Source: Raineyella fluvialis
GTDB taxonomy: Bacteria; Actinomycetota; Actinomycetes; Propionibacteriales; Propionibacteriaceae
Reading direction: 5' to 3'
NCBI RefSeq assembly: GCF_009646095.1
Contig: NZ_CP045725.1
Span: 496,001-560,000, forward strand
Length of the DNA: 64,000 nucleotides
Part shown: one piece after another, positions 11,609-15,462 of the stretch
Layout of the letters: each line of letters opens with the position of its first letter
How positions within the stretch are numbered: position 1 is the stretch's first letter
Made by a program: the position numbers and the translations under genes
The notes under the pieces: model-generated
Told to the model about the DNA's origin: nothing
Seen by the model: only the letters and a program-made list of their open reading frames with translations
The model's database searches: none

Positions 11609-12358
11609 ATGGTGGGCTTCTATGCGGTGCTGTCGTACGTCATCCTGGCTGCGGCGCTGCTGTTCATGGTCAAGGTCGCGCGTGGGAGCAACGGACCCGC
11701 GAAGTCGTGGGCGGACCTCCGCTCCTACGACCTCGAGGGCCAGATGTGGGCGGTCGTCCTGATCTCAGGCATGGCCGTCGGTGCGATCGTCCAGGCGGTA
11801 GGGGGTGGGGTCACCTCGTTCTCCGCGGTCGCTCTCGGGGTGGGGATCTGGTGCGGAGTGTTCCGGAAGCCGGATCGATTCTCCGGTCTGGTGCCCGGAA
11901 CAGTGGGTGCAGTGGCTTCGGTGTACGGATCGATCGACTTCGTGACCCGTGCCTCCAGCGACGCGGACCGCATCATCCGAGGTGGGATCATGTTCTGCCT
12001 GGCTGCCCTTTTCGTGCTTGCCGCAGTGACGCGCGTCCAACCGCTCCGGGGATTGACGTGGTTCGCGGCACTCGATGTGATCGCCTTCCTGGCCGGACCC
12101 GGAGGAGCAAGTTGGGTGGAGAGCCACGGCTGGCACGTGGGTGCACTCTCACTGATCGGGATCGGTGCGGCGGTGACGCTCGCCCTCATGCCGACGTTCG
12201 TGATCGCCTTGGCCGCTCTGGCCGTGGCCGGGATCCAAGTGCTCGGCTCGGCCTTCGGCTACCTCCCCGGGGACCTGACCTATTCGTTCGGGCCCATTGT
12301 GATGGCGCTCGTCGGATTCTGGATCACCCGAGCGGCAAGGACCCGCATCGGCGTGTGA
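11609..12358 (+). CDS. Hypothetical polytopic membrane protein
   Basis: A 249-residue hydrophobic protein with about seven membrane segments. The N-terminus YAVLSYVILAAALLFMVKVARG is a likely signal anchor, followed by a short cytoplasmic loop and evenly spaced helices to the C-terminus. Many residues are small (Gly, Ala, Val) and no catalytic motif is visible. The region before it is unstructured apart from a weak GAGAG Shine-Dalgarno. Codon use looks slightly less GC-biased than the neighbours, so recent acquisition is possible. I do not recognise the family. Confidence 0.65.
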   Translation: MVGFYAVLSYVILAAALLFMVKVARGSNGPAKSWADLRSYDLEGQMWAVVLISGMAVGAIVQAVGGGVTSFSAVALGVGIWCGVFRKPDRFSGLVPGTVGAVASVYGSIDFVTRASSDADRIIRGGIMFCLAALFVLAAVTRVQPLRGLTWFAALDVIAFLAGPGGASWVESHGWHVGALSLIGIGAAVTLALMPTFVIALAALAVAGIQVLGSAFGYLPGDLTYSFGPIVMALVGFWITRAARTRIGV

Positions 12359-12403: not shown

Positions 12404-14311
12404 CTACTCCCCGCCCATGATCCGGTGGATGTCGAGGCCGTAGCGGCGCACCAGGGTGTGCTTCGCCTGGTTGTATGCCCGGGTGCTGCCCTTGTCCTGG
12501 GTCCGGTCGACGTAGCGTCGGGCCAGCTCCCCGGCGATGACGTCCAGCAGGAGCTCGGCCAGTAGCAGCCGCGCTCCGTCGCGGAAGTGGCCGCGCCCGT
12601 CGATGTACATCCGGACGGTGGGCGCCTCGGTGTTGATCAGCACCAGCCGTTCGTCCGGGCTGTAGACCGCGCGGTCGATGTCGTTGTTGAGGTTGCGCAA
12701 CTCGTACCCGACGAACATGTCGGTGGAGTTGTCCTGGTCCCAGGTATGAGGTGCCACCCCCGGGTGGCTCGGGCCGCGGCCCAGCCCGTGGCCCGAGCCG
12801 TGTTCGGCGATCACCACCTCGCAGGTGGCGCGCCACGGGCCGCAGCCGGCGGACAGGCGCCCGTCCGCGCCGATCTCGTGACCCGTCATCGCCCAGGAGA
12901 AACGACCGTCGGACGGGAGTTCGGCGACCGCGATCGAGCCCGCCGCCGGATCGACGGCGACCGACCCCGGCAGGTCGTACTGGAACTCCAGCAGTTCCTG
13001 GTCGAGCACCTGCTCGCGGTCGACAACGAGGGTGACGTGGAAGGGACGGCCCACCGTCCGGTAGTAGAACGGCGTGGTGAAGCGCAGCACCGCCGGGCGG
13101 CCGGTGGGGAACGGACCGTACGTCCCTGATCCGGGCCCGGGGGGCAGCACGATGCCGAGGTCGTCGACGGCCACCTCGTTCATCCGCGCGAGCACCAGCT
13201 CGATCAGTCCCTGGGTCCGCTTCGACGTCGACGCGTGGTCGACGTGGCTCAGCCGCAACCGCTCGCTGTGCACGGCTGGCGCGATCGCCTCACTCACCGC
13301 GGCCGCGAACGCCGCGACGAAGGGGTCCTTGGCGTTGAGCCCCTCCCGTTCGTCGCTGATCACCGGGTGTCCGCGCGCCAACATCAACGCCAGGCCAGGA
13401 CACTCGACGGTCCCGAAGAGGTACTCGGTGCCGAGTTGGTTCTCGAATCGGAAGAACTGGCAGTCCAGCACCGCGGTGCCCGACAGCACCAGGAGCCCGT
13501 TGGTGCGCTCGTCGCCCTTGAGGACGAGTTCGGTCGCCAGGGCGCGGCGCAGGGTGAGCGTGAACACGTAGGAGGCTCCCCCGTACATGAACGTACGGGG
13601 GTCAGCCGGGCCGATCAGGACTTCGGAGGGAGGTGGCTCGTAGCCGAGGCGCAGCGGCGTGGCGGTCCGGCTCTCGTTGCGGTTCACCAGCTCGACCTGG
13701 CGGCGGCGTAGGACGTCGCGCAGGTAGACGTTGTGGCCGAGGGCGGTGACCAGCGTCCGGAAGTACGGCATGACGACGTCGCCGTTGTCGACGACGATGG
13801 TCACCAGGGTGCCGTTCGTGCCGGCCGGCACGCCGAGGCGAGTACGGTCCCGGGGAGTGGCCGGGCGGTCGGTGTCCCAGTCGTCGAAGACGTAGCCACC
13901 GAGTTCGGTGCGGAAGAGGTCGACCCGGGCGAAACGGCCGTCATGGATGGACTCGACCCAGCCGTGCCCCAGCCCGTAGACGGCCTGTTTGAGTCCCCGC
14001 CCGAAGTACCCGCGGCCCACTGCCTGGCCCCGCGACAACAGGCTGTGGGCACCCCCGTAGGACAGCACCGAACGGAGCCGGTCCAGTGACATCCCCTCGG
14101 AGCAGTCCGCCACGGTCAGCACGGCGCCGTTCAGGTGACGTTCGTAGCTGACGGTGATCCGGCCGCTGACCGGCAATCCGCGCTGCTCAAGACGGGTATA
14201 GCTGTCATCGGAGTTGGTGATCAGCTCGACGAGGGCCTTCTCGACCGAGGCGAAGCGGCGCGAATCGATGTCGATGATCCGTTGGTCGACCGGCAACGCA
14301 TGGATCCCCAT
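12404..14311 (-). CDS. GHKL-type ATP-binding protein (MORC/Hsp90-like), orphan
   Basis: A 635-residue protein with a GHKL ATPase module at the N-terminus. The N-box is KALVELITNSDDSY near residues 25-37, with the catalytic Glu and Mg-binding Asn. The G1 box is VADCSEGMS near 67-75 and the G2/lid is RGYFGRGLKQAVYG near 96-109. This arrangement is that of MutL/Hsp90/MORC ATPases rather than histidine kinases, and no His phospho-acceptor domain is present. The remaining 450 residues match no family I can name; they include an S5-like stretch and a C-terminus with VLINTEAPTVRMYIDGRGH. Prokaryotic MORC-like ATPases often belong to restriction or defence loci, but no partner nuclease is next to it. 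A purine-rich GAGGGGCGAGGG precedes the ATG. Confidence 0.7.
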   Translation of the reverse strand: MGIHALPVDQRIIDIDSRRFASVEKALVELITNSDDSYTRLEQRGLPVSGRITVSYERHLNGAVLTVADCSEGMSLDRLRSVLSYGGAHSLLSRGQAVGRGYFGRGLKQAVYGLGHGWVESIHDGRFARVDLFRTELGGYVFDDWDTDRPATPRDRTRLGVPAGTNGTLVTIVVDNGDVVMPYFRTLVTALGHNVYLRDVLRRRQVELVNRNESRTATPLRLGYEPPPSEVLIGPADPRTFMYGGASYVFTLTLRRALATELVLKGDERTNGLLVLSGTAVLDCQFFRFENQLGTEYLFGTVECPGLALMLARGHPVISDEREGLNAKDPFVAAFAAAVSEAIAPAVHSERLRLSHVDHASTSKRTQGLIELVLARMNEVAVDDLGIVLPPGPGSGTYGPFPTGRPAVLRFTTPFYYRTVGRPFHVTLVVDREQVLDQELLEFQYDLPGSVAVDPAAGSIAVAELPSDGRFSWAMTGHEIGADGRLSAGCGPWRATCEVVIAEHGSGHGLGRGPSHPGVAPHTWDQDNSTDMFVGYELRNLNNDIDRAVYSPDERLVLINTEAPTVRMYIDGRGHFRDGARLLLAELLLDVIAGELARRYVDRTQDKGSTRAYNQAKHTLVRRYGLDIHRIMGGE

Positions 14312-14400
14312 CGCCCTCGCCCCTCTGACGGCGTCGCTACATCCTCGTCTCCCGAGAATACGCCGGTCTGCGAGGGATCAGCCGACGATCGCGTCGGAGG

Positions 14401-15462
14401 TCAGGCCGCCGGCGCGACGTACGCCTGCGAGACCGGCATACCGGAATCCGCCCCGACCAGGATCGGTGACGGCGCGGCGCCCGCTTCGATGATCTGTGCC
14501 CCCAGGACGGCGATCATGGCGCCATTGTCCGTGCACAGCCCCGGACGCGGACGGCGCAGCGTGATGCCGGCCGCCGCCGTACGCTCCTCCAGCAACCCGC
14601 GCAGGCGTGAGTTGGCCGCGACACCACCGCCGAGCAGCAGGGTCTCGGCACCGAAGTGCTGGCAGGCGGCGACAGCCTTGGCGGTGAGCACGTCGCAGAC
14701 CGCCTCCTGGAACGATGCGGCGACGTCGTTCACCGGGATCTCGCGTCCGGCGGCCTGTTCGGTCTCCACCCAGCGCGAGACCGCGGTCTTGAGGCCGGAG
14801 AAGGAGAAGTCGAAGGGGTGCTTCACCAGGTCGTGCTTCGCCGTCAGCCCCCGCGGGAAGTGGATCGCCGCCGGGTCGCCCAGCTGGGCCGCCTTGTCGA
14901 TCACCGGACCGCCGGGGTAGGCCAGGCCGAGCACGCGGGCGACCTTGTCGTACGCCTCGCCGGCAGCGTCGTCGATGGTGGTGCCGACCTCCTCGATGTC
15001 GTCGGTGAGGTTGCCGATCCGCAGCAGCGAGGTGTGGCCACCGGAGACCAACAGCGCCATCGTCGGCGAGGCGGGATCCAGCGGACCGTGCTCCAACAGG
15101 TCGACGGCGACGTGGCCGACCAGGTGGTTCACCCCGTAGAGGGGCTTGTCCCAGGCCAGCGACAGGGCTTTCGCCGCGGAGATGCCGACCGCCAGCGCGC
15201 CCATCAGGCCGGGGCCGGAGGTGACGGCGATGCCGTCGAGATCGTCGGGCGTCACCCCGGCCGCCTCGAAGGCGCGCTGCAGGGCCGGGACGATCGCCTG
15301 GAGGTGCGCCCGGGAGGCGACCTCGGGGACGACGCCACCGAAGCGGACGTGTTCCTCGACCGAGCTGGCGACCTCGTTGGCCAGCAACTCGGTGCCGCGG
15401 ACGATGCCGACGCCCGTCTCGTCGCAGGACGACTCGATCCCCAGGACCAGCGGTGCGCTCAT
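14401..15462 (-). CDS. tsaD: tRNA N6-adenosine threonylcarbamoyltransferase TsaD
   Basis: Catalytic subunit that moves the threonylcarbamoyl group from TC-AMP to A37 of ANN-decoding tRNAs (t6A). The ASKHA fold is clear: [15 protein letters not shown] at the N-terminus, [12 protein letters not shown] in the middle, the metal-binding HLVGH, and [14 protein letters not shown] near the end. It has 353 residues, normal for bacterial TsaD. The ATG at 15462 overlaps the rimI stop by four bases, closing the order tsaE-tsaB-rimI-tsaD. A longer upstream open frame is not coding because it runs through rimI. Confidence 0.97.

Follow-up and report, generated by a model that had tools for sequence, protein, structure and literature searches.

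The locus and its genes

The window, a stretch of 64,000 nucleotides from Raineyella fluvialis, holds a gene for a GHKL ATPase that is flanked upstream by tsaD and faces a convergent open reading frame (ORF):

12404..14311, minus strand: GHKL-S5-Ig ATPase gene, 635 aa (ORF, Pfam, single copy, alignment)
14347..14366, minus strand: 20 bases identical upstream of the copy in a related genome (L013, Raineyella antarctica), containing a -10-like TATTCT
14401..15462, minus strand: tsaD, the flanking gene upstream, context outside the module (ORF; PF00814 in 1 of 150 neighbor proteins, its ortholog being among them)
11609..12358, plus strand: convergent membrane-protein-like ORF, context only (ORF list)

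The ATPase gene is read on the minus strand from an ATG at 14311 to an end at 12404, giving 635 aa; the plus-strand reading of 12404-14311 in that frame has internal stops. Position 14311 is the earliest start codon of the open frame, and methionine occupies the aligned start position in at least 97% of 42 rows from the closer relatives (group A, described below). Residues 22-118 match Pfam HATPase_c_3 at E = 7e-7, scoring 29.8 bits where the cut-off is 25, NCBIfam gives matches far under its cut-off only and PADLOC gives none, and neither these two databases nor Pfam name the protein beyond its ATPase domain. The gene is single copy in a one-contig genome of 3.65 Mb, where PF13589 is found in 8 places and the window gene alone is above the family cut-off. 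The 20 bases shared with R. antarctica, with their TATTCT, are a possible private promoter of the ATPase gene. The ORF at 11609-12358 was dropped as a candidate partner, the homologs in L013 and L018 being without an adjoining copy.

Domain architecture and conserved residues

According to the AF2 model, the predicted domain order is GHKL-S5-Ig-C-terminal, with the following parts:

13787..14311, minus strand: residues 1-175, GHKL (Bergerat) ATPase domain with N-box, G1, G2 and G3 residues (Pfam, AF2 model, residue counts)
13247..13762, minus strand: residues 184-355, S5-type transducer domain with invariant R322 (AF2 model; fold matches to MORC2, Hsp90 and MutL)
13088..13246, minus strand: residues 356-408, linker with a helix at 364-383 and a loop of pLDDT <50 at 391-406 (AF2 model)
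12806..13087, minus strand: residues 409-502, Ig-like beta sandwich (predicted fold)
12407..12724, minus strand: residues 530-635, C-terminal alpha/beta domain (AF2 model; conservation)

Residue counts were taken from an alignment of 52 rows, comprising 42 group-A sequences (the window protein included) and 10 more distant ones. No row departs from the others at E29, N33, D35, D69, G73, G104, G106 or G167, nor at R322 in the S5 domain. The GHKL superfamily residues looked for are present—the Glu, Asn and Asp of the N-box, the Asp and Gly of G1, the glycines of G2 and the Gly-Thr of G3—and, judged from these residues, the ATPase should be active. The GHKL ATP site (N-box, G1, G2) that the first-pass annotation had recognized in this 635-residue frame is thus upheld, both by the Pfam match above cut-off and by motif residues identical in 52 of 52 rows. 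Across the 42 group-A rows, 153 of the 635 positions are conserved at ≥97%, distributed as 65/175 in the GHKL domain, 40/172 in S5, 9/94 in the Ig part and 32/106 in the C-terminal domain (530-635), which is almost as conserved as the ATPase domain. The domains of the window protein have net charges of 0 to -5, with no basic DNA-binding domain evident; the linker is mildly basic (+2, +3) in two of three other rows checked.

Re-scored fold matches cover chiefly residues 7-359, where MORC2 (Z 20.2, rmsd 3.7 over 307 residues) and HSP90B (Z 20.1, rmsd 4.0 over 295 residues) are tied and MutL scores Z 18.1 (rmsd 3.7 over 282 residues); Foldseek likewise ties an HtpG model (2.1e-10, the first row) with MORC4 (2.2e-10). 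On whether MORC or Hsp90 is the nearer relative, the two sequence profiles disagree when compared with solved chains: the 52-row profile favors MORC, with MORC3 (E = 5.6e-4) and MORC4 (1.8e-3) on top and Hsp90-type chains behind them at about 0.03 and up, whereas the profile of the more distant group B favors Hsp90, with Hsp90-type chains on top (0.0058) and MORC absent from the best 60 of 90 rows. When the last 250 residues are folded on their own, positions 21-121 of that piece resemble Ig-type and other sandwiches at Z about 8, a score that may reflect no more than a common arrangement. A profile built from the same 250 residues reaches no solved chain at E 5, and for the last ~105 residues the fold search lists no match, though their fold need not be new on that account. 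The earlier statement that the last 450 residues match nothing is too strong: it holds for about 530-635, which have no assigned fold in our searches, and gives way in part to the structure prediction that the first-pass annotation had itself proposed, in which an S5 fold (184-355) and an Ig-like fold (409-502) are assigned.

Among Foldseek viral models, the best matches were giant-virus proteins from Hokovirus (E = 4.5e-25) and Yasminevirus (5.3e-20), with alignments of 761 and 788 columns, gaps included, far ahead of phage RIIA proteins.

Relatives and phylogenetic distribution

A quick search for relatives, in which some rows are metagenome bins, gave 124 relatives in a scan of genome contigs, and the best 80 of these were kept and split by identity into group A (71 loci, 48-81%) and group B (9 loci, 26-33%). 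Group A spans Bacillota, Mycoplasmatota, Actinomycetota, Pseudomonadota and Campylobacterota, with single rows of other phyla; two of its members, L013 (R. antarctica) and L018, are the same records as G002 and G150 of the genome samples. Presence is sporadic: at E 0.001 the gene is matched in 4 of 198 genomes of the family, its own included, one of these being a weak stretch of 27% identity, which leaves 3 credible of 198; 4 of 396 genomes match in the phylum sample, again with its own included and the other three at 30-32% over partial length. The window protein had no match in 72,556 plasmid records or 50,697 phage records, and no relative was found in the viral contigs searched.

The tree has 76 rows, the broken or cut copies L070, L072, L074, L079 and L082 having been left out. 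In it, the window protein groups with L013 and a Propionibacterium MAG in a starred set, which a starred branch (95) connects to two Acholeplasmataceae MAGs and which stands apart from the remaining 14 Actinomycetota rows; the label Actinomycetota changes at least twice on starred branches. This is good but not final evidence that the gene has been transferred between phyla.

Within the genus, the ATPase gene adjoins tsaD in two of four Raineyella genomes and is unmatched in the other two. The site 3' of tsaD is variable (L101 2432-3529; L100): an ORF beside tsaD in G001 was read as HTH plus peptidase, and neither such an ORF nor the ATPase was seen near tsaD in the fourth genome, G003, whose sequence was read as having contractile-tail-like ORFs some kilobases further on.

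Group A stands alone, group B has a partner

A check that took all ORFs and was independent of the gene caller found none within 1.5 kb of a group-A gene whose relatives lie equally close in more than five other loci of the 71. The most recurrent nearby ORFs are ahpF in Marinobacter (as read), an ArsR-like ORF in the Arthrobacter loci and a zinc-alcohol-dehydrogenase-like one, and the commonest neighbor clusters are general families kilobases distant. The first-pass reading of the protein as a lone GHKL ATPase akin to MORC and Hsp90 is sustained, with databases naming the ATPase domain only. Group-A neighbors are mostly ordinary genes. Among the matches listed, the gene lies between genes read as ahpC and ahpF in Marinobacter, with or without a DUF3581 gene between, after a MOSC-like gene (as read) in Halomonas, and near purM-like genes (as read) in Thauera-like loci; neighbors are kept within each of these three sets and are more variable in Arthrobacter.

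The neighbor scan covered 150 of 157 cluster representatives of 70-700 aa, from 249 neighbors within two genes, 17 of more than 700 aa having been left out. Among the 25 of 44 PADLOC families listed for these 150 neighbors there is no restriction enzyme or methylase, and hence not the restriction-modification neighborhood of paraMORCs; the families outside the 25 have best E values no better than 3.6e-14. The first-pass annotation had proposed searching homolog neighborhoods for nucleases and methylases, and, by the refuting condition that it had set, the mostly ordinary group-A surroundings count against the defense role it had raised, though they leave some room for a single-gene system. Some defense-named models do occur, namely mad2 in 3 of the 150 neighbors and PDC-M30B, PDC-M41B, BrxHI, DpdF, E1-E2, SoFic, SngC, PsyrT and ZorB in one each, and these count against a context that is ordinary only; in our reading, most of them belong to broad families, namely helicase, ThiF, Fic, MotB and response regulator. 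Among the 25 of 177 Pfam families listed, Phage_integrase was found in 2 of the 150 neighbors and a Mutator transposase in one.

Three candidate links to group A were set aside. An ArsR/SRPBCC (AHSA1-like) connection as an Hsp90 co-factor was dropped, ArsR lying within 1.5 kb in 6 loci that are all of the Arthrobacter lineage; the zinc-alcohol-dehydrogenase-like gene also recurs in 6 loci, but belongs to a broad family; and control by heat shock or SOS was rejected, since the 70 upstream regions contain none of six operator patterns, a strict search of low power. ArsR and/or SRPBCC (AHSA1-like) genes near the ATPase gene were seen in the Arthrobacter-type loci L034, L037, L041, L075, L078 and L081, on a side that differs by sublineage. 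In a single case, a gammaproteobacterial MAG (L071 1133-12061), genes read as recC and recB flank a group-A copy.

In group B, a partner profile search finds a protein of ~215 aa adjoining the ATPase in every one of 10 distinct loci; these are the nine from the best 80 relatives plus L006, whereas L005 and L010 are on the same contig as L092. The partner is 3' of the ATPase in L087 and 5' in the other group-B loci, and its profile at E 0.01 is absent from the other loci searched. It has no clear Pfam or PDB match, and its sequence was read as a possible winged helix; against PADLOC, PDC-M03B was matched in 1 of 9 partners (0.0051). A search at E 1 for an unlinked group-B partner in the genome of the window gave none, an empty answer that is uninformative, the search having had no positive control.

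Restriction or DNA-methylase genes lie within two genes of the ATPase in 3 of 9 group-B loci: a LexA-DNA-methylase fusion in L083, with a BsaWI-like enzyme one gene beyond; an N4/N6 methylase in L087; and Mrr with DUF499 in L091, after which come another gene and then one for DUF1156. PADLOC, run on 60 of 98 group-B neighbor genes, agrees, with two type II methylases and one each of an Mrr-type enzyme, DUF499, DUF1156 and DUF3780. The earlier view that relatives sit in restriction or defense loci thus applies to this sister group and not to the 71 loci of the window's own group. The gene caller missed genes in some loci: it called none around L057, found few on the short contigs L026, L049 and L063, and was too sparse in L085 and L090; the longest-ORF lists of L057, L085 and L090, as read, have no restriction or methylase gene within two genes, with ORF6N-like and Fic-like ORFs adjoining the pair in L085 and a recombinase-like ORF in L090.

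Two single loci may be mentioned here. In an Anaerolineales sequence (L089 9348-11872), partner and ATPase lie between genes read as atpG and atpD of an ATP-synthase operon, and a more distant GHKL relative lies ~450 bases downstream of a gene for an AbiEii-type nucleotidyltransferase (L007 1159-3240; L011 8354-8875).

Comparison with known GHKL systems

Iyer et al. (2008, PMC2292703) give the MORC S5 signature as GhXhhpXXRhl and discuss bacterial MORC-like ATPases mainly within multi-gene restriction systems; a subset of paraMORC3 is described there as stand-alone, several of paraMORC1-5 have C-terminal extensions, and the TIR of paraMORC4 may also be a separate gene. The window protein shares with MORC (MORC2/3/4 and the prokaryotic MORCs of PMC2292703) the GHKL plus S5 module, the S5-type domain after GHKL being present in the predicted fold, and a gene that is sporadic and moves laterally, but it has neither the signature Arg nor an adjoining restriction partner. 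The motif is otherwise kept: of the 42 group-A rows, 40 have Ala and 2 have Val at position 280, and the 10 others have Ala in 8, Cys in 1 and Thr in 1.

ParaMORC1-5, too, combine GHKL and S5, and group B resembles them in that 3 of its 9 loci have restriction or methylase genes nearby. We set the paraMORC families apart by their described motifs: (i) the ExxxH of paraMORC2 at the C-terminal end of S5 is absent from the window protein, and occurs within residues 336-367 in 25 of 42 group-A rows and 1 of 10 others; (ii) for the RE-fold nuclease of the paraMORC3/Shedu type (E-D-ExK; DUF4263), no [ED]xK is conserved at 85% in the last 250 residues, and Pfam finds no nuclease domain in the 52 members; (iii) Pfam likewise finds no C-terminal TIR, as in paraMORC4, in the 52 members; and (iv) in place of the HxH of paraMORC5, only His 629 is conserved at 85% in the last 250 residues. 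A C-terminal nuclease was rejected for lack of a conserved motif.

With Hsp90/HtpG, the protein shares a similar length and the fold of the N and middle domains (HSP90B, Z 20.1), but differs in its predicted Ig-like domain and its C-terminal end; beyond the ATPase domain the Hsp90 family is unmatched, Pfam giving only HATPase_c, _2 and _3 in 52 members, and it gives no mismatch-repair or MutL C-terminal family either. VcSduA, a Shedu nuclease, is like it a single protein with an N-terminal GHKL domain, and its dimer has been modelled with a clamp-like middle domain (PMC12137116), but the window family has no Pfam nuclease domain. CapK/CapS (PMC13373217) and the paraMORC-linked histidine-kinase-like proteins (PMC8011034) pair a GHKL protein with a small partner gene as group B does; they differ from the window protein, in which Pfam finds no STAS and no separate second HATPase stretch. 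PADLOC has no model that names group A or group B and gives no strong system match, the weak ones being MzaB in 2 of 52 members (best 8e-4) and Csn2 in 1 of 52 (0.009). On the features tested, formal membership in MORC, paraMORC2-5, Shedu, Hsp90 and MutL is rejected. In our search of literature listings and abstract openings, from which subscription journals are largely absent, we recognized no study on the lone-gene family.

Proposed mechanism and alternatives

We propose, at just under even chances, that the protein is an ATP-gated homodimeric GHKL-S5 clamp acting on DNA or DNA-bound complexes and kin to the two-gene module of group B. An active GHKL-S5 ATPase would work as a homodimeric clamp, much as MORC and MutL do: ATP would shut an N-terminal gate, the S5 domain would relay gate closure, and the Ig-like and C-terminal domains would grip the substrate and provide a second dimer contact. 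The clamp mechanism would follow from the family. The analysis itself establishes that the ATP motifs are intact, how the predicted domains are ordered, that the gene is alone, sporadic and under purifying selection, and that a sister module has a partner; ATPase activity, a dimer, a clamp cycle, a DNA substrate and a benefit to the host are inferred. The substrate would most likely be DNA or a DNA-bound complex, because the 52-row profile hits MORC and DNA-modifying genes lie near 3 of 9 group-B loci. Points that weigh against this reading are the tie of MORC with Hsp90 in both fold comparisons, the Hsp90-type chains on top for the group-B profile, domains with no evident basic DNA-binding surface in the window protein, and the mostly ordinary neighbors of group A. 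The family may descend from, or share an ancestor with, a module of ATPase and ~215-aa partner sometimes near restriction-modification genes, and the window's subfamily would spread as a single gene with no adjoining partner. This subfamily, found over several phyla, has a full ATPase module and a conserved C-terminal domain with no nuclease motif and no partner. Together, the lone group A and the partnered group B offer a handle on how a GHKL-S5 clamp acts alone, which bears on eukaryotic MORCs, and the single 70-kDa gene product is directly testable.

Two more specific roles are, by our estimate, each less likely than this general clamp reading, and we consider either of them unlikely. As a single-gene anti-phage or anti-plasmid system, the clamp would trap invading DNA without a nuclease of its own; as an Hsp90-like chaperone or remodeller of protein complexes, the protein would serve normal physiology, dimerizing through a C-terminal domain and binding clients through its Ig-like domain. 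Sporadic presence (3 credible of 198 family genomes) and the cross-phylum transfer suggested by the tree fit the defense role that the first-pass annotation had raised, but the plasmids, phages and viral contigs without a match do not, nor does the ordinary context of group A, where neighbors are kept within the Marinobacter, Halomonas and Thauera-like loci, if less in Arthrobacter. That 3 of 9 loci of the sister module have restriction or methylase genes close by speaks for defense and against a chaperone; the distant relative downstream of an AbiEii gene, and a tsaD-side site that holds the ATPase in two genomes of the genus and an HTH plus peptidase ORF in a third, also speak for defense. 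Some group-A neighbors match defense-named PADLOC models and 2 of 150 are phage-type integrases, yet most of those models, as read, describe broad families, the families listed include neither a restriction enzyme nor a methylase, and the protein's own PADLOC matches (MzaB, Csn2) are weak. For the chaperone, the tie between Hsp90 and MORC fold scores with an HtpG model as the first Foldseek row, the Hsp90-type chains on top for the group-B profile and ordinary neighbors such as the Marinobacter ahpC/ahpF (as read) have to be set against a Pfam result of HATPase_c-type domains only in 52 members and against 70 upstream regions in which four heat-shock operator patterns are all missing (strict patterns, low power). 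More doubtful still is a one-gene, nuclease-free, MORC-like immunity or silencing factor whose ATP-gated clamp alone would trap incoming DNA with no partner; if true, it would be a bacterial counterpart of MORC silencing without the partner of the sister group.

That the gene is a near-neutral passenger or decaying relic seems to us highly improbable. Three of 71 group-A copies (L070, L072 and L074), two of them from Halomonas and one from Marinobacter, are divided between two frames, the copy of a Desulfoarculaceae MAG (L082) ends after residue 130 in mid-contig, and two of four genus genomes have no match; the breaks in these four copies are possibly assembly errors or recent decay, and L077 and L079 are cut at or near contig edges. 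Against decay stand the 153 of 635 positions conserved at ≥97% over 42 rows and, by Nei-Gojobori counts, dN/dS values of 0.08-0.24 in seven pairs: 0.175 for the window gene and the L013 copy, a genome pair in which tsaD has 0.139 and a dehydrogenase-like gene 0.197, with the remaining six pairs, also from group A, at 0.08-0.24. The earlier suggestion that the gene is the remnant of a system survives in so far as the sister group is a two-gene module, but not as decay: the window gene is intact and under purifying selection and, with a GC3 of 0.91 against 0.92 for tsaD, looks settled and maintained.
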